From a bacterium (lineage in GTDB: Bacteria; Armatimonadota; Chthonomonadetes; Chthonomonadales; JAMCWF01), in assembly GCA_021842405.1 (NCBI GenBank), contig JAKBZR010000022.1, forward strand, positions 1 through 39,119: a stretch of DNA of 39,119 nt. Direction: 5' to 3'. A program made the position numbers and the translations under genes. Of the stretch, positions 10,591 through 38,525 are shown piece by piece. Under the pieces are notes generated by a model. The model saw only the letters and a list, made by a program, of their open reading frames with translations, made no database searches and had not been told where the DNA came from. Position 1 is the first letter of the stretch. Each line of letters starts with the position of its first letter.

Positions 10591-11550
10591 TCACGTAGTC
10601 TCTTTTTGAAAAGTTTCTCTTGCCCCCAGCGATTGGGCTTCCAAAAGCGCCTGAGTCCACTCTTTGCAAAGCTCGTTATAGCCGATCTGGAATTCCTCGC
10701 TATCCTCCGGCAATCTCTTCAACTGCACTTCCGCTTCCTCCAGTCGGGCGATCTTTTTCTGAAACTCGGCTTCATCCACCGGCATCCTTAACCGCTCCCA
10801 AAGCCCAGTCAGCGTCGCGCTTTTCGGGTGCTTCTGATACAATCGGACGGACATACGACCTACCATTCGCGTCCGCTCACAGTACGAAGTGAACGTGTAT
10901 GGGTGGTCGTGGAAAGCCTGCGCTCGCGCCTCATAGACCAGCCGAAATCCTGATTTACGATACCGAAACTCCATCTCTATGTCGTCGAAGGCCGGCATAG
11001 TAAAATATTCATCAAAACCGCCATGCTGCTCGAAAAAGCAACGCTTCACCGAGTGGTGGCTGCCGTAAAGCCTTCCCACCGGCACGTTCTCTGGATCAAA
11101 TCCCGTAAAGCTGCTTTGATGAGCGCAATCGGGCTCCGCCAGAAACCTTAGAAATGGCTGGTGCAGCAGGCTTGGCAGCCAGGTGATGCGCCCCAGCACG
11201 CCGACGCTAACGTGGGATCGTGCGGCATGAGCTTCAAGATGCGCTTCAACCACTTCGGGAGCGGCCAGTGTATCGTCTCCGAGAAAGAGCAATAATTCAC
11301 TTTGGGCCAGCGCCGCGCCACGATTTCGAGCCGCATTTGCGCATTGATGATGAAGAGATAAAAATCGAAGAGAGAGGTTATATGGCTCACGCAGGACATG
11401 AGGCGTTTCGTCATCCGATCCATCATCCACCACGATAACTTCAAACCGATCATGAGGCGCCATCTGCTTTTCCAAGGCGCGGAGACATCGGCGCAGGATG
11501 GCGGCTCGGTTGCGCGTCGGGATTATAATGCTGATCTCCGGAGCCGGCAT
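10591..11550 (-). CDS. Family 2 glycosyltransferase (last gene of the radical SAM cluster)
   Basis: The 319-aa protein opens with the GT-A fold of family GT2: ISIIIPTRNR at residues 6-15, the nucleotide-binding DDGSDDETP at 42-50 and the metal-binding FLGDDT at 89-94. An acceptor-side FDDIEMEFRYRKSG block follows. The C-terminal 60 residues are charged and helical, with no membrane segment. It should transfer a sugar from a nucleotide-sugar in the cytoplasm. Its ATG lies 4 bases after the stop of the larger radical SAM gene, so the two are translationally linked. That suggests glycosylation of the cluster's peptide or pilin product, though the acceptor is not shown by sequence. Confidence 0.88.
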   Translation of the reverse strand: MPAPEISIIIPTRNRAAILRRCLRALEKQMAPHDRFEVIVVDDGSDDETPHVLREPYNLSLRFLSLHHQCANAARNRGAALAQSELLLFLGDDTLAAPEVVEAHLEAHAARSHVSVGVLGRITWLPSLLHQPFLRFLAEPDCAHQSSFTGFDPENVPVGRLYGSHHSVKRCFFEQHGGFDEYFTMPAFDDIEMEFRYRKSGFRLVYEARAQAFHDHPYTFTSYCERTRMVGRMSVRLYQKHPKSATLTGLWERLRMPVDEAEFQKKIARLEEAEVQLKRLPEDSEEFQIGYNELCKEWTQALLEAQSLGARETFQKETT

Positions 11551-11554
11551 CGTC

Positions 11555-13183
11555 TCAACTCATTGATGGTTGAGCGGCAACGGTTTGAAATTCTTCCGGT
11601 TCCATCGGAATGACGGCGGGTGAGGATGCCTTCGAAACGGAATAACAGAGCCGTTTTAATGCCTGCGGATTGCGCTGCCTCAATTCAATAATTATCCAAA
11701 TGGAGAGCTCTACCAAATGGCGCACCAATTCGCATTTAACGGCGTTGGGGATCCGATGATCTCCGTTTGCAAGTACCGCCGAGAAATAGCAACCGCCCCC
11801 GCACAGGTAACGCGCCCAACAATCCTTACACACCGGCTTTTGGTCTATCATCGTGTCTTGGAGAAATTCCGATCGTTTTGTCTCATCTATTCCTTGATGA
11901 ACGTCTCCCAGGCAGTACGCATCCCAACCGATAAAGTTATCGCAAGGGTACAATCTGCCGTCAATGCCGACGCCGAAGGTGTTTCGGCCCGCCTCGCATC
12001 GAATGGCCTGCTTGTTGCCTCGAATCACCCGCATCAGAAACCGGGCAAAGAAATCGAACTCGACGAGGGTAGCGTAGATGCGATCATCACCATTCACCAG
12101 GCATTCCAGCATCCACTCGGCGTATTCGGTGTACCCACTCTTGAAGGCATTCAGGGTTTCTGCGCGCAAAGACCATTCATACTTTTCGAAGTCGCGCACC
12201 GGCGTGACCACGATATGCCGGAACCCCAGCTCAATCAGATGTTGGTACACCTGTTTGGGAAATGGGTATAACGCGGTCAACACCGCGCCGGCGGCCGCGT
12301 CCCGTAATCCCGCCCACGAGCTGTTCAGCATCCGAGGCAGGTTTTTTACAATGGCATCGTAGGAGCCTCGACCGGAGGAGAAGGGACGCATGGCATCGTG
12401 AATCTCCTTCGGGCCGTCTATGGAAACCGCCATCGTGACTTCGTTCTCTTCGCAATAACGGATGCACTCTTCATGGAGGGCGGTTCCGTTCGTGTTCATG
12501 TTCAAGATGATGGATAGCCCCAGGTCCTTGGAAAGCTGCGTGCAGTAATTTTTAAGGTTCCGGTAGCGCTCCAAGGAGAGCAGCGGCTCTCCGCCTAATG
12601 TGAAGTTGATATAAACCACCGGCACTTTTCCGGCCATCCGCTCGGTGATGAAGCGAATGCTCCGCTGGGCCGTTTCAAGCGGCATTACATTCGGCGCCCT
12701 TCCTTCGGCAGCCTCCACCCGCCTTCGCCGCGAGTTACAGTAGCGGCAGGCAAGGTTGCAGGTAAGGGTGCCGTCCATCAGCAGCTCCCCCTTCTGCGGT
12801 TTAGGCTCCTGGACGGAGGGCGGCGGGGTGGCAACCTGCCGAAGGTAATGGGTAAGTTTCGCATGGTTCTCAATTCCGTCGAACAGTCGGTTGAGGGGAG
12901 TCGTTGCCGCGATTTGGGAGATGTGGAACGCCATTTGCTCTTCCGGCAGCGCCGCTAATTTAATCAGGTCTCTCAGAAGTGGACTCACTAGTAAATGCTG
13001 GCCGGACTGGGCGTCGAAAAGATGGTGCTGATCAGGCTGGTTCTCCGGGTCGGAATTTGGAGGCGCGAACAGATGTAAATTCCTAGCAGTTTCCTCCCGA
13101 CACACCGCCATAGAGCGATGCCAAGCCCGAAGAACGCTAACGGGACGGGATATTTGCCTGAGATTGGAACTAATAATTCCCAT
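11555..13183 (-). CDS. Radical SAM/SPASM peptide maturase with RRE-like N-terminus
   Basis: The 542-aa protein carries the radical SAM cluster motif C142-x3-C146-x2-C149 and a GGEP motif near 197-200. The SPASM domain has Cys396, 414, 452, 455, 461, 465 and 484, which bind auxiliary iron-sulfur clusters. Residues about 50-115, starting HHLFDAQSGQHLLVS, resemble the leader-binding RRE region at the front of SCIFF/ranthipeptide-type maturases. Such enzymes form thioether or carbon crosslinks in ribosomal peptides. It lies in the same minus-strand unit as a Cys-rich precursor-like protein and a second SPASM enzyme. The ribosome site before its ATG is weak. The substrate assignment is inferred from context. 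Confidence 0.9.
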   Translation of the reverse strand: MGIISSNLRQISRPVSVLRAWHRSMAVCREETARNLHLFAPPNSDPENQPDQHHLFDAQSGQHLLVSPLLRDLIKLAALPEEQMAFHISQIAATTPLNRLFDGIENHAKLTHYLRQVATPPPSVQEPKPQKGELLMDGTLTCNLACRYCNSRRRRVEAAEGRAPNVMPLETAQRSIRFITERMAGKVPVVYINFTLGGEPLLSLERYRNLKNYCTQLSKDLGLSIILNMNTNGTALHEECIRYCEENEVTMAVSIDGPKEIHDAMRPFSSGRGSYDAIVKNLPRMLNSSWAGLRDAAAGAVLTALYPFPKQVYQHLIELGFRHIVVTPVRDFEKYEWSLRAETLNAFKSGYTEYAEWMLECLVNGDDRIYATLVEFDFFARFLMRVIRGNKQAIRCEAGRNTFGVGIDGRLYPCDNFIGWDAYCLGDVHQGIDETKRSEFLQDTMIDQKPVCKDCWARYLCGGGCYFSAVLANGDHRIPNAVKCELVRHLVELSIWIIIELRQRNPQALKRLCYSVSKASSPAVIPMEPEEFQTVAAQPSMS

Positions 13184-13243: not shown

Positions 13244-14392
13244 CTAAATGGCCTGTTCCCCAAGGCGTTCCGCTCGAAAGCGCGTGTAGAGACAATTGAT
13301 CGGCAGAGGGGCGTGGATATCGCCCTTCATGTGGAAACTGCATGCAGGACACGGACCTTGGCACAAGTCCTTATAACCGCAGACCCGACATAAGGGACGG
13401 CGCTCATCACTACTATCCATAAGATCGGCATGGGCGATGTGATTTGTGATGCCCTCGAATACGTTGCCCAGGCGGAAGCGGTCTGACATGCCCGGAAATG
13501 GACTCACAAATCGGGAGCACGGGTATAGATCCCCCGAACATGAAACCGCCACTCGTGTCCTGCCAGCGTCGCAGCCCCAATATCCAGCCGACCGATTTCG
13601 GATATCCTCCAAAGTCTCATCCATCTCGGTGATTCGGATCGGAGAGCCTTTCTTCTTCTCAGCCGCATAGAAGCACGCAACCTCGCGCATCTCATCCCCC
13701 CACATTTTCAGTTCCTCTTTGCTCCACTCTACGTCCATATTTGTCCCAATAATGAATTGATTTACGCCATGATTATGCAGGAAACGTATGCCAGTCGAAA
13801 GCCGATCCACCGTATCAGGGTTTACCGTAACACGAGCACCTACCCACTGCTGGATGGATTTGAGTAGGTTGAAATTGGCACCCATAACGGTTTCCCATGA
13901 ACCCCTTCCGCTCGTGGTTATTCTATGACGGTCATGTGCGTCCCGCTCTCCATCTACGCTTAACAGGTAATTGAACCCGTGTTCCTGCCCGAAGAGCGCA
14001 ATCTCACGGGTCATGCGGGTACCGTTGATTGTGGCCGCGTAACACACTTTTTTACCGAGTTGTCCGGCCCTATTTTCCGCATACTCGGCGATCCTCTTCA
14101 TCAAAAGAAATTCCAAAAGTGGTTCTCCGCCAAAGAAAGTAATGCTCACGGTAGTAACATCCCGTGACAGCCTTAGTAACATATTGACAGACGCACAGGC
14201 GACATTCCACGGCATCCGCCTCGATGTCTTCTTGTTTGCCACGAAGCAATAGTCACAGTTTAGAGTGCAGCTCTCGGTCAGAAACAACTCAATTTTGGTG
14301 ATCGGTGGTGCAGTCCGGTGCATCAGTCTGCTAGTGATTGCCCGGCGCAGGCGCTCCTCGCGCTGCGCATTCATTAGCGAAATGGTTAGCAT
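13244..14392 (-). CDS. Second radical SAM/SPASM maturase
   Basis: This 382-aa protein has the radical SAM motif C42-x3-C46-x2-C49 (ESCTLNCDYC), FFGGEP at 86-91 and a SPASM set: Cys274, 285, 292, 335, 338, 344, 348, 351 and 367. It has no long N-terminal extension, unlike its neighbour, so it may rely on the larger enzyme or on a separate partner to find its substrate. The family installs crosslinks or other radical modifications in peptides, or matures enzymes such as sulfatases; no sulfatase is nearby. The start is well supported: AGGAGG is 5 bases before the ATG. It is followed at 60 bases by the other SPASM gene. Confidence 0.9.
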   Translation of the reverse strand: MLTISLMNAQREERLRRAITSRLMHRTAPPITKIELFLTESCTLNCDYCFVANKKTSRRMPWNVACASVNMLLRLSRDVTTVSITFFGGEPLLEFLLMKRIAEYAENRAGQLGKKVCYAATINGTRMTREIALFGQEHGFNYLLSVDGERDAHDRHRITTSGRGSWETVMGANFNLLKSIQQWVGARVTVNPDTVDRLSTGIRFLHNHGVNQFIIGTNMDVEWSKEELKMWGDEMREVACFYAAEKKKGSPIRITEMDETLEDIRNRSAGYWGCDAGRTRVAVSCSGDLYPCSRFVSPFPGMSDRFRLGNVFEGITNHIAHADLMDSSDERRPLCRVCGYKDLCQGPCPACSFHMKGDIHAPLPINCLYTRFRAERLGEQAI

Positions 14393-14477: not shown

Positions 14478-15119
14478 TTATTTGTCTGGTGGATTCCACT
14501 TCGCGTGGCCGTCGACGTATACAGCGTTCCATCCGCCGAAATGATCATCACCCGGCGGGTCGGAAGGACCGCAGCAAGCCGTATTGGCGTCGTTAATCAG
14601 AAGGCATCGACTGGGCGGAATAATGATATCCAGTATATTTGGATGGCCCGGATGTATCGCTACCAATCCCATCACGGACAGATTAGCTTCATAGCTAAAG
14701 AAGCTACCATCAAATCGGTAGCTGGAAAATTGATGATTCACCAGCCACCTATTAACGTTTTGCCCTGCCACCGGGTCGTCCGGGCAAAACCAGATACGGT
14801 TGTTACGAATATACGGCATAAGCGCTTCGTGCAACAGCCCTGGCGCGCAGCGCCCGGGCCGGTAGGATGAGTCACTGGTACTAAGGCAGTCCCTGCCAGG
14901 AGATGTGTTGGCGAAAGGCGGGAAATAGTCGCCGTAATCTTGGGCGTACATCAGGTCTGCCATGCCGAGTTGGCGCAGGTTCGAAAGGCAGGTAATCTGC
15001 CTTGCCTTTTCACGCGCCCAGAAGAACACCGGAAAGATAATCCCGGCTATTACCGCGATGATGCCGATCACCACAAGCAACTCTATGAGCGTAAATGCTT
15101 TATCTCTGGTGCGTCTCAT
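14478..15119 (-). CDS. Type II/IV pseudopilin-like protein with H-x9-DG end
   Basis: The protein (213 aa from this start) begins with a short basic leader and the prepilin cleavage and methylation region [19 protein letters not shown], then the [16 protein letters not shown] helix. The C-terminus has [12 protein letters not shown], the H-x9-DG signature of the many pilin-like proteins in Planctomycetes and Armatimonadota. It should be cut by a prepilin peptidase and anchored or assembled at the membrane. ATG 15119 is chosen over the longer 15173 reading because GGAG lies 7 bases upstream and the leader then has the right length. It lies between the Cys-rich protein gene and the radical SAM genes in the same orientation. 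Confidence 0.88.
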
Positions 15120-15255: not shown

Positions 15256-15729
15256 TCAGCAATAATTAGTATTGTATGTGGCGCCAGAAGCGCAAGATGG
15301 TTCCTGATCGCAATAGTAATCGCCACTCTTGCAATTAAACGTAGACTCGCAGGTGAAGGTATTGACGCACTCGAAAGTTCGTATGGTACAGCCATACGTA
15401 TCGTAACAATCGAATGTATTGTAACAGGTAGCCGTACTGCCACTCCCACCACAACTATAGTCAGTACACACATATTGGCTGCATTGCGGCGACACGCCTG
15501 CCGCATGTAGATCATCTGCGGCACCATATCCCACACGGCGAATGGATTGCACCTCGTTCACCCGATCCATTGCCCGCGCCATCACCGAATCGAACGTGAC
15601 CGCGCCAAACAGAGCCGCCACCGCCGCCTTAATCGCGACATCGCTGATGAATTGCCGCCGAGAAAGATCATCTTTCTCAACACCCTGATTGCCCTGCGGA
15701 ATCCGCTTCTCTTCCTCATGGTTCGACAT
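15256..15729 (-). CDS. Tat-signalled Cys-rich repeat protein, candidate RiPP precursor
   Basis: The 157-aa protein has a polar N-terminus, a twin-arginine motif SRRQFI (23-28) and a hydrophobic stretch (about 32-46) ending near an AxA-type site. Residues 83-157 hold 12 cysteines (83, 88, 93, 102, 108, 114, 121, 127, 133, 140, 146, 157). Between 102 and 133 they form a near-regular ladder C-x-x-T-[F/Y]-x-C, for example C102-YNTFD-C108 and C127-ESTFN-C133. I recognise no known family. Two SPASM enzymes nearby suggest Cys-Thr or aromatic crosslinking before Tat export of the folded product. AAGGAGG sits before the ATG, and the gene overlaps the preceding one by 14 bases. The alternative is an ordinary disulfide-rich surface protein. 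Confidence 0.75.
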   Translation of the reverse strand: MSNHEEEKRIPQGNQGVEKDDLSRRQFISDVAIKAAVAALFGAVTFDSVMARAMDRVNEVQSIRRVGYGAADDLHAAGVSPQCSQYVCTDYSCGGSGSTATCYNTFDCYDTYGCTIRTFECVNTFTCESTFNCKSGDYYCDQEPSCASGATYNTNYC

Positions 15730-16045
15730 TCTCTCTTCCTCCTTTTTGAGCCGTCGGCTCCTTCAAACCGTCGTTCGCTTTCGCATCGGGTGCATTTGAT
15801 CCGTTTTCACTTCCACCCGCCAGAGCATTGCCGTTCAGTTCACGCATTCGTTCCAGCACCGCCTCCGCCAACAGATTGATCTTTTCCCGCTCATCAATCT
15901 TCCGTACAACCGCCTCCGCGATCCGCTCCACGATGAACGCATCCGCATCATCCATTCCATGATCGGCGCCGGCAGCCGGAGCTTCGCCCTCCCTGAGGCC
16001 GCTCTCGCCGGGTGGATATTCCGTGTTTAGCACTGTCTTATCCAT
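15716..16045 (-). CDS. Small acidic helical protein, first gene of the radical SAM cluster
   Basis: This 109-aa protein is hydrophilic and acidic, with a predicted amphipathic helix at about residues 32-70 (VERIAEAVVRKIDE...LLAEAVLERM) flanked by low-complexity Gly/Ala/Asn-rich tails. There is no cysteine, signal peptide or known motif. Its stop codon lies inside the start region of the Cys-rich gene (14-base overlap), so translation of the two is coupled. GGAG stands 10 bases before the ATG. It could be a chaperone, a scaffold or a discrete leader-binding partner for the precursor; none of these can be shown from sequence. Confidence 0.6.
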   Translation of the reverse strand: MDKTVLNTEYPPGESGLREGEAPAAGADHGMDDADAFIVERIAEAVVRKIDEREKINLLAEAVLERMRELNGNALAGGSENGSNAPDAKANDGLKEPTAQKGGRENVEP

Positions 16046-33942: not shown

Positions 33943-34803
33943 TTATCTTAGTTCCGGAAAATGGATCTTTATCTTTGTGCACTGCGAGAAACACTCTTTA
34001 AATTTAAAAGCCGCATAGTGCCCCTGATCTGGTGAACAAAAAGCTTTATAACAAGCTAGTTCGCAACTATAGCACACCCAATATTTTACATCCGGATCAT
34101 CGAGGCAATCACTATATAATGCTTCCCGACATGCATCACAATTTGCATTCCACCCATCACATGGATCATTACATCCACTGGATGGTGGCGGCGGGGGAGA
34201 TGGTGCTTTTGGAGGACAAGAAGGCGGACACTGCTTAATTCTAAATTCACTGCAACCTTTCTTTGCCATTACGCAAGCAGCAGTAGATGTCATACCCCAT
34301 TCACACCACGCTTGAAAACAACACTCAAAACAATAACCAATGGGTGAAAAAGGGCATATCCGGTTACCGCAATCAACCCCGCGCCAATCCTTACCCAGAG
34401 GATCTATAAATACTCCCGGTCTATTCCCTACATACCGGTACAAATTCCAATCACCCTCGAACCCGATCGGATCCCGGCTCATCCATCTCCCCAAATCCGT
34501 CCGCAGGTGCCTCGTCCTTACGTACAACCTGCTCGCGATGTCCCGCCAGTAGCCGACCTGCCCGACAAACCGCAGCGGATTGACCGTCGTTCCCGATACC
34601 AGAAGCTCCTCTCCGAACGCCTTGTATAGGTAGCTGTCGGTAATATTTCCGCCGATTGAGACCAATATTCTAGTATTGCTCTGCTGGTCAAACCCGTAAA
34701 AGCTGCTGGTTGAGCCCCTTCGCTCCGAAGCCAATCCGCCCCACATTCCTGGATAGTCGGTGTAGTGCGCCTGTGTCACCAGATTGGCGTCCGTCTCGAT
34801 CAA
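33943..34803 (-). CDS. Rhs core end with 21-cysteine tip (array member 3)
   Basis: The first 125 residues or so are the end of an Rhs/YD-repeat core: SERRGSTSSFYGFDQQ, the YLYKAFGEEL block, FVGQVGYWRD and the LGRWMSRDPIGF border motif, then YRYVGNRPGVFIDPLG. After it comes a unique tip of about 150 residues with 21 cysteines and a proline-rich PSPPPPPSSG spacer. The tip is unlike any toxin that I recognise. There is no ATG or ribosome site: the frame opens after a stop and the first usable codon is TTG, so it may be a silent cassette that needs recombination into a full rhs gene. Heavy Cys content suggests disulfides outside the cytoplasm. Confidence 0.72.
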   Translation of the reverse strand: MIETDANLVTQAHYTDYPGMWGGLASERRGSTSSFYGFDQQSNTRILVSIGGNITDSYLYKAFGEELLVSGTTVNPLRFVGQVGYWRDIASRLYVRTRHLRTDLGRWMSRDPIGFEGDWNLYRYVGNRPGVFIDPLGKDWRGVDCGNRICPFSPIGYCFECCFQAWCEWGMTSTAACVMAKKGCSEFRIKQCPPSCPPKAPSPPPPPSSGCNDPCDGWNANCDACREALYSDCLDDPDVKYWVCYSCELACYKAFCSPDQGHYAAFKFKECFSQCTKIKIHFPELR

Positions 34804-34866
34804 AACGTTCTGGCCGTCACGAACGAAGAGCCTTCATTTTTAAATTTTTTTCAACGGCCAACTAGA

Positions 34867-35916
34867 TCAATGGGAGATTACGCATTCATAAACACGGGGA
34901 AGGATCGTGTGGACTTTATGTGTGCTCATCTGAATTTCCACAAGTGCTCCCGGTCCAACCGCAGCATAAGGGCGGATTAATAATAGATAGCTCCCCCCCT
35001 CTGCTAAGCCCACTGGGTCATATTGGCCATTGAGTTTGAATAGCAACCGTTGGACAAAAGTTCGTACATCAAGTGAAAATATCTCTGTAGCTGAAATATT
35101 TAAAGATGCTGAATTATTGGAAATATGATGTTTATAGATATATTTTGCAATAATAAGTTCACCATAGCGATTACCTGAACAGAAAATAGGATATGGCGTA
35201 TAGCTGCGTGTAATCCGTTCACGTTTCAGTTGGGTGTCAACAATCCAGATATATGACGTCATATCTATTACCAAGAAACGATTATCCAAGATTAGACAAC
35301 CATTACCATCATCATATGCTCGCCACGCTGCTAGTTGTTTACCTGATGGAGATCGCAGCGTAAGAAACGTCCAGTGCTTTCCTCCCATAATCTCGAACCA
35401 ACCATTAGAGAGGCTTCCGACAGCGTCGACATTGGAAGGTAGATTAATGAATTTTTTTACTCCGGATAGAGGGTTAATTCTATAACAATAATGATTCCAG
35501 CCGTCAAAAGCAACTGTATTTTGTTTTATCCCCATTTTACGCTTTTGGCTTTGGGTTAACAACTTATCTTCTCGATAAATAATACTCCGCCCTAACCATC
35601 CAATGATGTCTCCTCGTATTACTGGTATGCCTAGAATATATCTCCCATGCTGATATATCCGAATCGTCTGTTGCCCTTCGACCGCCAAATAACCATCAGG
35701 TCCAGTGAACATACCATTGATGATTATAGAATGAAGCCATCGTTTAGAGCCTGTCCTCAGGTTCAGGTAGACAAGCCCGTTCGGTTCCGAGGTATGGCAA
35801 TATATGGATGTAGACTTGGTTGAGATGGCATGAATCTTTCCCTTTGCATAATGAGATGCAAGTCCTAGGATAAGGAATGCCAATATTAATCCGGTTATTT
35901 GATTGTTCCGCCGCAT
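34867..35916 (-). CDS. Exported beta-propeller-like companion of the second Rhs tip
   Basis: The protein is about 349 aa from this start. An N-terminal hydrophobic segment (NNQITGLILAFLILGLASHY) acts as a signal or anchor. The remainder is a string of short beta repeats such as PNGLVYLNLRTGSKRW, GPDGYLAVEG and NRFLVIDMTSYIWIVD, which suggests a propeller fold. No family match is recalled. ATG 35916 is preferred because GAGG lies 7 bases upstream; it overlaps the end of the preceding Rhs tip gene by 22 bases. Position and export suggest an immunity or tip-binding partner. Confidence 0.6.
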   Translation of the reverse strand: MRRNNQITGLILAFLILGLASHYAKGKIHAISTKSTSIYCHTSEPNGLVYLNLRTGSKRWLHSIIINGMFTGPDGYLAVEGQQTIRIYQHGRYILGIPVIRGDIIGWLGRSIIYREDKLLTQSQKRKMGIKQNTVAFDGWNHYCYRINPLSGVKKFINLPSNVDAVGSLSNGWFEIMGGKHWTFLTLRSPSGKQLAAWRAYDDGNGCLILDNRFLVIDMTSYIWIVDTQLKRERITRSYTPYPIFCSGNRYGELIIAKYIYKHHISNNSASLNISATEIFSLDVRTFVQRLLFKLNGQYDPVGLAEGGSYLLLIRPYAAVGPGALVEIQMSTHKVHTILPRVYECVISH

Positions 35917-36809
35917 TCGACGCCTCTCTGGGAGCGCTTCTTCGCGCAATCGCATGCATTTTTACATCCGTGGGGAACAGCACTGCTACCAATTGTGGCG
36001 CATTTTACAGATCGCACTGTAGCATCAGGAAAGAATCCGGTATTAATTGCGTAGCAACAGCCGAAATCAATGAGACGACCGCTTTCGCTTCCTGTATCAG
36101 TTATTGTGACCGTTATACACTTCAAATGACCCTTAATGTGACGACAGCACTTTACAACATCGCCACACTGCCATCCAGGTCCCTTAGGAGGTTTGAGCCG
36201 TCCTAGTGGTAGAGCGGCTGCAGTAGCAGCACAAGGGTTGAAACATGTTTGGCAAGCTGTGCAACAATTTTTAAAGTCATTCCCATAACAGGATGCTGTT
36301 CCCCAAAACCATTGGAGACGATGGTTTTGCTTTGTTGGGCATTGATAATTACCACAATCCCCTGTCACCTCCGATAGCGGATTATTGCCAGCATAGGTGA
36401 AAATAGATACATAAATATGAGGATAGGTGAAGGATAATTCTTCATTCCAAATTTGGCCCTTACCTATCCATCTACCTAAATCAACACGCAGCACCCTCGC
36501 CTCCACGTAAAGCCTGCTCGCGACGTCGCGGTAATACCCGACCTGCCCGCCAAACCGCAGCGGATTGACCGTCGTTCCCGATACCAGAAGCTCCTCGCCG
36601 AAGGCTTTGTACAGGTAGCTATCGGTGATATTACCACCGATTGAGACCAATATTCTAGTGTTGCTCTGCTGGTCGAACCCGTAGAAGCTGGAGGTTGAAC
36701 CCCTCCGCTCAGAGGCTAATCCGCCCCACTCACCGGGAAGGTCGGTGTAGTGAGCCTGGGTCACCAGATTGGCGTCGGTCTCGATCAGCACGTTCTGGCC
36801 GTCCCGCAC
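35895..36809 (-). CDS. Rhs core end with 19-cysteine DPBB-like tip (array member 2)
   Basis: The core part starts with RDGQNVLIETDANLVTQAHY, and homology extends a little upstream (YFV) to an in-frame stop, so no ATG exists; GTG 36809 is nominal. The core ends at DLGRW, then diverges from the other members (IGKGQIWNEEL). The tip has 19 cysteines, and one stretch, ITVTITDTGSESGRLIDFG, resembles the double-psi beta-barrel pattern of RlpA or expansin-like domains. If real, the tip could act on cell wall or glycans. The stop overlaps the companion gene start, so the pair is coupled. Confidence 0.7.
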   Translation of the reverse strand: MRDGQNVLIETDANLVTQAHYTDLPGEWGGLASERRGSTSSFYGFDQQSNTRILVSIGGNITDSYLYKAFGEELLVSGTTVNPLRFGGQVGYYRDVASRLYVEARVLRVDLGRWIGKGQIWNEELSFTYPHIYVSIFTYAGNNPLSEVTGDCGNYQCPTKQNHRLQWFWGTASCYGNDFKNCCTACQTCFNPCAATAAALPLGRLKPPKGPGWQCGDVVKCCRHIKGHLKCITVTITDTGSESGRLIDFGCCYAINTGFFPDATVRSVKCATIGSSAVPHGCKNACDCAKKRSQRGVECGGTIK

Positions 36810-36905
36810 AAAGTAGACGGCATCTAAAATGGTATCCCTTGCTCATGGTGGTTTGTTCCTCTTCTTAGTGAGAGCAACACCCATATCCCAGCAAAAAGCA
36901 AAATT

Positions 36906-36929
36906 GAGCGGAATCGAACCACCAACCTT
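36906..36929 (-). other. tRNA T-arm-like fragment at a cassette border
   Basis: The minus strand carries GGTTGGTGGTTCGATTCC, which matches the T arm of the tRNA-Asn gene at 32489 onward in 17 of 18 positions. It lies between the end of the first companion gene and the start of Rhs member 2. No acceptor or anticodon arm accompanies it. It may be a relic of a tRNA-targeted insertion. Confidence 0.45.
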
Positions 36930-36938
36930 ATCTTTCGA

Positions 36939-37529
36939 CTATGGGTAACGCTTGTCGATTGTAAGTGTATTTTTTATTAATGTAAATAATGAATTAATTG
37001 TTGACATCTTCTTCTCTGCATCTATCACATTATATGCAGATATGCTATAAGAAAAGTCAAGCTCGACTAATTTTCTTGTCGCAAATAGTTGTTTCGTTTC
37101 AACAACAGAAGGTGAGAGACTTGGCATCACTGATACAATGTCTTCACTGGACATATTAATTCCTCTAAGGCGGAAAGAACGAATTAATCCATATTTACCC
37201 TGATGATATAGTCGGCCTAGTACTAGCTTGTGTTTGATTTTCAATGGCCCTCCATAAATCTTTTTTTGTGCTACACAATAATGCGGATCATATATATTAG
37301 CCCAGATCACTAATATCTTATGCTTATTTTGAAACCAAAAGCCACATCCCCTTGGTGCTGGTGGCCTAACATTTGGATTGTTATAAATCGGAGGCGAATA
37401 CTCTTTCTTTATTAACCGCCAACAGCACGGCAATGAAAAGCTCACCCTCGGCGTCTTTAACAATATTCGCTGACTATTTCCAAGAGTAGCAAGACCAATT
37501 ATAGTGTAAATACAAATGAATCTGAACAT
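36939..37529 (-). CDS. Exported companion of the first Rhs tip
   Basis: The 196-aa protein has an N-terminal signal-like segment (FICIYTIIGLATLGNS) and a small AT-rich domain with the PRVSFSLPCCWRLIKK and APRGCGFWFQN motifs. It is not recognisable as a known family. An opening of VSFSLPCCW style loosely echoes IKVPNGWTY in the lipoprotein companion at 33126, which may mean a common fold; this is a weak observation. AAAGGG lies about 6 bases before the ATG. It starts 54 bases after the first Rhs tip, as expected for a paired immunity gene. Confidence 0.6.
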   Translation of the reverse strand: MFRFICIYTIIGLATLGNSQRILLKTPRVSFSLPCCWRLIKKEYSPPIYNNPNVRPPAPRGCGFWFQNKHKILVIWANIYDPHYCVAQKKIYGGPLKIKHKLVLGRLYHQGKYGLIRSFRLRGINMSSEDIVSVMPSLSPSVVETKQLFATRKLVELDFSYSISAYNVIDAEKKMSTINSLFTLIKNTLTIDKRYP

Positions 37530-37583
37530 AGTATCCCTTTCAATCTGAACTATTATGTTGCTATCTCTATCTCGTCATTCAGT

Positions 37584-38525
37584 TCAGTAAGTTCCATAAT
37601 ACTGCTGACATAAATTACCCAAAGTGCTCCCTACATCGGGAAGACCGTGTTGATGCGCAAGCCAATTAACACAATTTTTCCTAAGACAATCTTCATTACC
37701 ATAGCATCCCCAAGGATCATTATTATTATCCCACGTTCCTTCTTGAATCAATTGGTTGCATATTCTTCCGAAATGCATATATTTGCCACCATTCCTCATG
37801 TCTACCCATACATTCTGACACATATCTCCGATTTGATGGTATTTCTCGTACCGCTCGTATTCTTCACCGTAGCCATAAGTTCCACATGTGCCTTTTACTT
37901 TCCACATGATTCCTTTTTTAATGAACCTTCCTATCGGAATTGGAACGGACGGCCTTTGCCATGGATGAGGATTGAGTTTATGCATTCCTTTCACCCAGTC
38001 CCAACATGAACCATTCCGTCTTCCGGGAATAAATGCTAAGCAGTTACCTGATGCTTTCTCACATGCAGTAATAGGGCTCCACCCGATGCCAGAGAAGCGT
38101 TCAAACCAGCACATAAAACAGGCACTTGATGGCAATTGTGGACACTTTAATCCTGATGGGTCGACATTCTTCAAAGGGTCGTTATTCCCATACCGATAGA
38201 TGTTAATACCGCCACTAAACCCGATCGGGTCCCGGCTCATCCACCTCCCCAAATCCGCCCGCAGATGCCTCGCCCGCACGTAAAGCCTACTCGCGATGTC
38301 ACGGTAATACCCCACCTGCCCGCCGAACCGCATCGGGTTGACCGTCGTCCCCGATGCCGCCAACTCCTCACCGAACGCCTTGTACAGGTAGCTGTCGGTA
38401 ATATTACCGCCGATTGAGACTAATATTCTTGAGTTTGCCTGCTGGTCGAACCCGTAAAAGTTCGAGGTCGAACCTCTACGCTCCGAGCTCAATCCACCCC
38501 ACTCGCCGGGGAAGTCAATAAACAC
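37584..38525 (-). CDS. Rhs core end with 13-cysteine tip (array member 1)
   Basis: The protein is 313 aa. Core homology begins abruptly at DFPGEWGG and runs through SERRGSTSNFYGFDQQ, YLYKAFGEEL and LGRWMSRDPIGF to NNDPLKNVDPSGL. The tip (about residues 128-313) has 13 cysteines and a SSACFMCWFERFSGIGWSP block that resembles GYCFECCFQAWCEWGMTST in member 3. No toxin family is recognised. There is no signal peptide and no ribosome site; GTG 38525 lies 8 bases after a strong promoter, so it may be read from a leaderless message. It is the first member in the direction of transcription. Confidence 0.72.
   Translation of the reverse strand: MFIDFPGEWGGLSSERRGSTSNFYGFDQQANSRILVSIGGNITDSYLYKAFGEELAASGTTVNPMRFGGQVGYYRDIASRLYVRARHLRADLGRWMSRDPIGFSGGINIYRYGNNDPLKNVDPSGLKCPQLPSSACFMCWFERFSGIGWSPITACEKASGNCLAFIPGRRNGSCWDWVKGMHKLNPHPWQRPSVPIPIGRFIKKGIMWKVKGTCGTYGYGEEYERYEKYHQIGDMCQNVWVDMRNGGKYMHFGRICNQLIQEGTWDNNNDPWGCYGNEDCLRKNCVNWLAHQHGLPDVGSTLGNLCQQYYGTY
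38218..38517 (-). repeat. Rhs core-end direct repeat (four copies on the minus strand)
   Basis: About 270-350 bases encoding the same core end recur at 38218-38517, 36470-36825, 34458-34825 and 32697-32960, with high nucleotide similarity. They provide recombination substrate between cassettes or with a full-length rhs gene elsewhere. The entry gives the first copy. Confidence 0.8.

Follow-up and report, generated by a model that had tools for sequence, protein, structure and literature searches.

The window analysed here is a 39,119-nucleotide stretch of an Armatimonadota contig (JAKBZR010000022.1). Its minus strand carries a cassette in the order helper, precursor, DUF1559 pseudopilin, rSAM1 and rSAM2 (Table 1). 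The ATG of the precursor ORF is preceded by AAGGAGG, and the helper gene overlaps the precursor start by 14 nt. The segment 15256-15486, to which the earlier note had drawn attention, is the C-terminal half of this ORF. A second precursor, 58% identical, is encoded on another contig of the host genome. The GT2 glycosyltransferase gene adjoining rSAM2 had no counterpart in the other cassettes fetched. Elsewhere in the window (33943-38525, minus strand), Rhs-like C-terminal fragments are repeated, which have in common an ERRGST-x-x-FYGFDQQ stretch and carry a different tail each; this region looks like a polymorphic (Rhs) cassette.

Table 1. Features of the precursor cassette, in positions of the window
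Feature	Positions	Strand	Basis
Helper, 109 aa, conserved helix IAEAVVRKIDERxKIxLLAEAVLERL	15716..16045	-	Conserved upstream of precursors
Precursor, 157 aa, Tat-like leader and Cys-rich core	15256..15729	-	ORF with Shine-Dalgarno; one paralogue; homologues in 7 other Armatimonadota genomes
Leader, residues 22-60: SRRQF twin-arginine-like motif, Ala-rich hydrophobic stretch, charged helix	15550..15666	-	TIGR01409 15.4 bits (just under cut-off 16.7); kept in homologues; genome encodes TatC
Core, residues 82-157, 12 Cys, 8 aromatic-x-Cys units	15259..15486	-	
DUF1559-type pseudopilin	14478..15119	-	PF07596, PF07963
rSAM1, PapB-like radical SAM/SPASM, candidate aromatic-x-Cys crosslinking enzyme	13244..14392	-	NF047865 231.9 bits (cut-off 340)
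rSAM2, radical SAM/SPASM near QhpD/ScfB	11555..13183	-	TIGR03906 213.5 bits (cut-off 453)
RRE-like N-terminal domain of rSAM2, about residues 36-118	12830..13078	-	Model: three strands then three helices; profile aligns from CteB N-terminus
GT2 glycosyltransferase adjoining rSAM2, cassette membership uncertain	10591..11550	-	PF00535

In Armatimonadota, most cassettes with shorter cores have a DUF1559-type gene immediately 3' of the precursor. The chance of such adjacency in 7 of 8 cassettes (our own cassette count) was estimated as about 4e-14, on the basis of about 30 DUF1559-type genes in the host genome, a gene total assumed to be about 3300 and an assumed equal density in the relatives. 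In the cassettes with giant precursors, the pseudopilin is replaced at this place by a propeller-like protein (PF07494). Some cassettes have no rSAM2. Since those without rSAM2 nearby (genomes G007, G245, G260 and G065) retain the aromatic-x-Cys motif, rSAM1 is the better candidate for acting on it. Outside the phylum, the minimal unit consists of the precursor and rSAM1. The rSAM2 model (pLDDT 77) was placed on CteB by Foldseek, and its profile alignment begins near the CteB N-terminus and spans the RRE-like domain, with an E-value inflated by the two SCIFF maturases included in the profile. The radical SAM core of rSAM1 begins almost at the N-terminus, and this enzyme has no RRE-like domain.

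Cys residues are found at positions 83, 88, 93, 102, 108, 114, 121, 127, 133, 140, 146 and 157 of the precursor. Those from 102 to 133 form the ladder described in the earlier note: Thr stands three residues before each of the six Cys, and Phe or Tyr two residues before five of them, C102 having Ala instead. Further Y-x-C units flank this ladder, QYVC and DYSC upstream and DYYC downstream. In the whole core, 8 of the 12 Cys have an aromatic residue at -2 and 7 have Thr at -3, with 2.2 expected in both cases; when Cys were fixed and the other core residues shuffled, these counts were reached in 0 and 2 of 1000 shuffles, respectively. Both arrangements are non-random within the window protein, but the homologues keep only the aromatic residue. 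An AlphaFold model of the precursor (pLDDT 39.7; 4 sequences) was not informative for the core.

Among 291 Armatimonadota genomes, 8 encoded precursors with aromatic-x-Cys cores. The closest homologous core (locus L012, 8066-8374) belongs to G005, a Chthonomonadales MAG related to the host genome. Compared with the window core, it keeps all nine Cys corresponding to C102-C157 and all six aromatic residues at -2, with exchange of F and Y, whereas only one of seven Thr at -3 is kept. The precursor, rSAM1 and rSAM2 of the G005 cassette have broken reading frames, reflecting decay or assembly error; the family-wide result given below is independent of this cassette.

The family statistics cover 18 precursor cores with 360 Cys, among which are paralogues of common ancestry, so that the cells are not independent. 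Phe, Tyr, Trp or His occupied position -2 at 275 of the 360 Cys (61 expected from shuffles; z 31.5), made up of 209 F, 49 Y, 14 H and 3 W, and 209 of the 256 core Phe were located there. Each of the 18 precursors exceeded its own shuffles, no more than 1 in 1000 of which were as high, and about 24% of the core Cys have no aromatic residue at -2. Thr at -3 was not enriched across the same cores (26 observed, 27 expected). It was also near expectation from +2 to +7, and a weak excess was seen only at -6, -1 and +1 (z 3.0, 3.4 and 2.5). Asp and Glu were in excess at -3 (z 5.6) and at -1 (z 6.0), but no candidate acceptor position was enriched comparably to the aromatic residue at -2.

These facts divide the earlier reading. 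The aromatic-x-Cys unit recurs across the homologues, and this part is strengthened and extended to a multi-phylum family. The homologues that keep Cys without Thr, which the earlier note had named as evidence against its ladder, do exist, but the equivalent loss of the aromatic residue was not found. The near-regular Cys spacing holds for the window protein but not for the homologues, in which the gaps are mostly 5-12 with a mode of 6; the regular geometry of the proposed rod-like strand is not general. Even Cys counts, which the earlier note would have attributed to disulfides, do not prevail either, 11 of the 18 cores having odd counts.

Some homologues are giant precursors, with 36 Cys each in L060 (428 aa) and L061 (449 aa). 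The largest, L064, has 596 aa and 60 Cys, 49 of which have F, Y, W or H at -2 (all lengths being those of stop-to-stop frames). A conserved break between two arrays, approximately CN-x-PGTG-x-Y ... PGDF-x-C, was observed in L060, L061, L062, L064, L066 and L082, and is looser in L066 and L082.

The rSAM1 alignment was scanned against named genomes, giving 80 loci. In the tree, the rSAM1 enzymes encoded beside FxC, ArC and Sm-like precursors formed one clade (24 rows; support 100/97), apart from the SCIFF enzymes, from enzymes beside SGxCxxDxC and CExxC arrays, and from rSAM2. One SCIFF enzyme outside the clade, L109, passes the TIGR03974 cut-off. Enzymes outside the clade adjoin Cys arrays with almost no aromatic residue at -2. 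The seven SPASM Cys are invariant among 13 rSAM1 sequences. FxC is spread over more than one branch of the clade (3 changes), and the register of the motif may therefore have shifted or been lost.

Beside clade enzymes, aromatic-x-Cys cores were also found in Sumerlaeia (L082), a MAG labelled Chlorobiota (L085), Poribacteria (L087) and Sporomusa malonica (L091). In the cultured strain S. malonica DSM 5090, the pair consists of a 160-aa precursor at L091 7329-7808 and a 406-aa enzyme at L091 7815-9032. The leaders differ across the family: they are Tat-like, lack the RR motif in Sumerlaeia, or are Sm-like in Sporomusa. That the motif recurs on leaders unrelated to one another is the strongest reason to regard it as the substrate of rSAM1. 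In the phylum (291 genomes), precursor and rSAM1 occurred together in 7, the precursor alone in 1, the enzyme alone in 3 and neither in 280 (p = 3e-11). Two of the three enzyme-only genomes have adjacent ArC precursors (L068/L086 and L071), and in the third the contig ends beside the pilin (L069). In the precursor-only genome, G015, no rSAM1 was found; its locus (L015, 6994-8837) holds the precursor and a pilin beside a transposase-like fragment.

Several other Cys-rich proteins were encountered near these enzymes. Armatimonad precursors with the aromatic residue directly before Cys (ArC) lie beside rSAM1 of the same clade at L071 4882-5496, L095 835-1368 and L086 7525-7833. The Desulfotomaculaceae precursors (L092 4885-5829, L093 and L096) have an Sm-like N-terminus and QYMQPC repeats and are located just upstream of a radical SAM ORF; these relatives within the clade show a weaker aromatic pattern. 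A Phycisphaerales protein (L097 3127-5109) with a Tat-like leader carries 144 Cys, arranged in CETGCEVSC repeats; its gene and that of a PapB-like radical SAM enzyme are about 3 kb apart. In Desulfobulbaceae, Brocadiaceae and Thermodesulfovibrionales, large proteins with SGxCxxDxC repeats are encoded next to SCIFF/PapB-like radical SAM enzymes (L099 9315-10860, L104 2039-2890 and L134 4611-6935), and are possibly Asp-acceptor ranthipeptide arrays. A phage origin was rejected, the precursor being encoded in no phage record, and plasmid relatives of rSAM1 were rejected as the same system, being about 31% identical or below and including annotated QhpD homologues (PeaB).

Both in the window and at related loci, a leader-bearing precursor is encoded beside a radical SAM maturase, as in RiPP biosynthesis. 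The host genome carries TatC (PF00902, 197 bits), and a Tat-type leader would suit a protein that is modified in the cytoplasm and then exported. No protease gene for leader removal was identified in the cassette. Leader-only proteins without an aromatic-Cys core were seen at L078 4322-4606 and L031 360-767, the latter with a helper before it and a secreted Cys-rich protein after it.

From the motif, its conservation, the enzyme clade and the gene linkage, we lean towards the interpretation that the cassette makes a Cys-rich structural protein of RiPP-like type, modified at many sites by rSAM1, which links Cys to the aromatic residue at -2, and exported by Tat for a surface role. The precursor would be recognised through its leader, perhaps aided by the RRE-like domain of rSAM2 and by the helper. 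On the unfolded core, rSAM1 would then act at many sites, creating one small ring per [F/Y/H]-x-C unit. One crosslink per rung, as the earlier note proposed, is still the best reading of a precursor beside radical SAM genes with a retained aromatic-x-Cys motif, but not with Thr as the partner. The most likely bond would be a thioether between the sulfur of Cys and the benzylic beta carbon of Phe or Tyr, which is ranthipeptide chemistry with a new acceptor; an activated beta carbon is common to Phe, Tyr, His and Trp, and may fit such a bond. After export, the product would act on the cell surface, probably together with the pseudopilin encoded next to it. Several facts speak against this interpretation, namely the scores of rSAM1 below the cut-offs, the opposite order of Cys and acceptor in known PapB substrates, the Cys without an aromatic residue at -2, the ArC and Desulfotomaculaceae relatives in the clade, the genome G015, in which a precursor but no rSAM1 was found, and the Tat score just below its cut-off.

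The bond could be of another type. In a triceptide-like cyclophane, the second most likely bond, a ring carbon of the aromatic residue would be bonded to the beta carbon of Cys in i,i+2 spacing, and each ring would retain a free thiol. Geometry favours this alternative, since i,i+2 aromatic-x-X3 with Phe, Tyr, His or Trp as ring partner is the triceptide pattern (PMC11002830), whereas enzyme kinship favours the thioether: rSAM1 scores far better against the thioether families (PapB, 231.9 bits) than against AmcB (70 bits), FxsB (56) or GrrM (57). Cys as X3 is missing from the examples listed in PMC11002830. We regard the cyclophane as unlikely. Less likely still, the aromatic residue may serve only for recognition or packing while rSAM1 links Cys elsewhere, to another Cys, a nearby Asp or Glu, or an alpha carbon of the backbone. 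PapB and QhpD use Asp/Glu as acceptors (PMC11002830, PMC9413430), and these two residues are enriched here as described above, but they stand at -1 or -3 of just 140 of 359 Cys, and the aromatic residue is the sole near-universal neighbour.

It is improbable that the core is an unmodified exported protein held by disulfides or metal, with the radical SAM genes acting on another substrate. Secreted Cys-rich proteins are common, and the uninformative AlphaFold model of the core would be compatible with one; the occurrence of the motif in several phyla, on leaders that are unrelated but always beside one enzyme clade, the minimal pair of precursor and rSAM1, and the odd Cys counts argue against it, and a disulfide ladder was rejected on the last of these together with the enzyme linkage. 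A SCIFF-type Cys-Thr gamma-thioether at each rung, suggested by Thr at -3 in the window protein, is hardly credible, as Thr was rejected as the partner on the family-wide statistics and the closest homologue, and neither radical SAM enzyme reaches half of the SCIFF maturase cut-off.

If Cys is indeed linked to the aromatic residue at -2, one enzyme would form tens of covalent rings within a substrate of protein size by a two-letter rule, and a new crosslink would be added to a known enzyme family. More tentatively, these proteins may represent a new class of radical SAM products, structural polymers rather than small natural products, which are exported by Tat, reach about 600 residues and bear dozens of i,i+2 crosslinks between Cys and aromatic residues. 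Their enzymes would be a distinct SPASM clade that uses aromatic acceptors where its relatives use Asp or Thr. Within the literature searched, the protein would also be the first RiPP of the radical SAM type to carry a Tat-type leader. No prior description of this type of crosslinked protein was found in the literature searched; most subscription papers lay outside the search, and an earlier description is possible. As the substrate motif is tied to an enzyme clade, a comparison of sister clades can test how SPASM thioether enzymes choose their acceptors, and the Sporomusa pair offers a directly testable system.

Among known systems, the Cys-every-fifth and CXXX-repeat radical SAM peptides (NCBIfam) likewise combine periodic Cys with a radical SAM maturase; their spacing, judged by family name, differs, and the enzymes here score low against them. 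QhpD, which acts in quinohemoprotein amine dehydrogenase maturation, forms thioethers and is the best curated match of rSAM2, but rSAM2 is below its cut-off and no amine dehydrogenase genes were recognised within the window. Triceptides (XncB, OscB, YhhB, FxsB) share the aromatic residue at i with its partner at i+2, a spacing seen at 275 of 360 Cys, and allow the same Phe, Tyr, His and Trp. Here, in contrast, the partner is Cys, and rSAM1 is not close to the cyclophane families (FxsB 56 of 370, YhhB 56 of 445 and AmcB 70 of 425 bits). The SCIFF system also has a Cys-dense core, and CteB (5wgg) is the solved structure nearest to rSAM1; the precursors here, unlike SCIFF, follow no Thr rule and are not short six-Cys peptides, and the enzyme belongs to another clade, with TIGR03974 scores (cut-off 425 bits) of 151 for rSAM1 and 189 for rSAM2. 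PapB, QhpD and CteB, the known enzymes nearest to rSAM1, make S-C thioethers (PMC11002830, PMC9413430). The chemistry of rSAM1 is inferred, because it scores below every curated equivalog cut-off shown; for PapB (NF047865), the other clade members tested reach 228-269 bits. The nearest curated family is that of the PapA/PapB ranthipeptide freyrasin, also made by a SPASM radical SAM enzyme at many crosslink sites per core. PapB substrates have Cys before an acidic residue, CX3D (PMC9413430). This rule was rejected for the present cores, which lack the acidic acceptor and belong to much longer precursors: D/E at +4 is depleted (30 observed, 46 expected), and the order, with the aromatic residue before Cys, is opposite to that of PapB.
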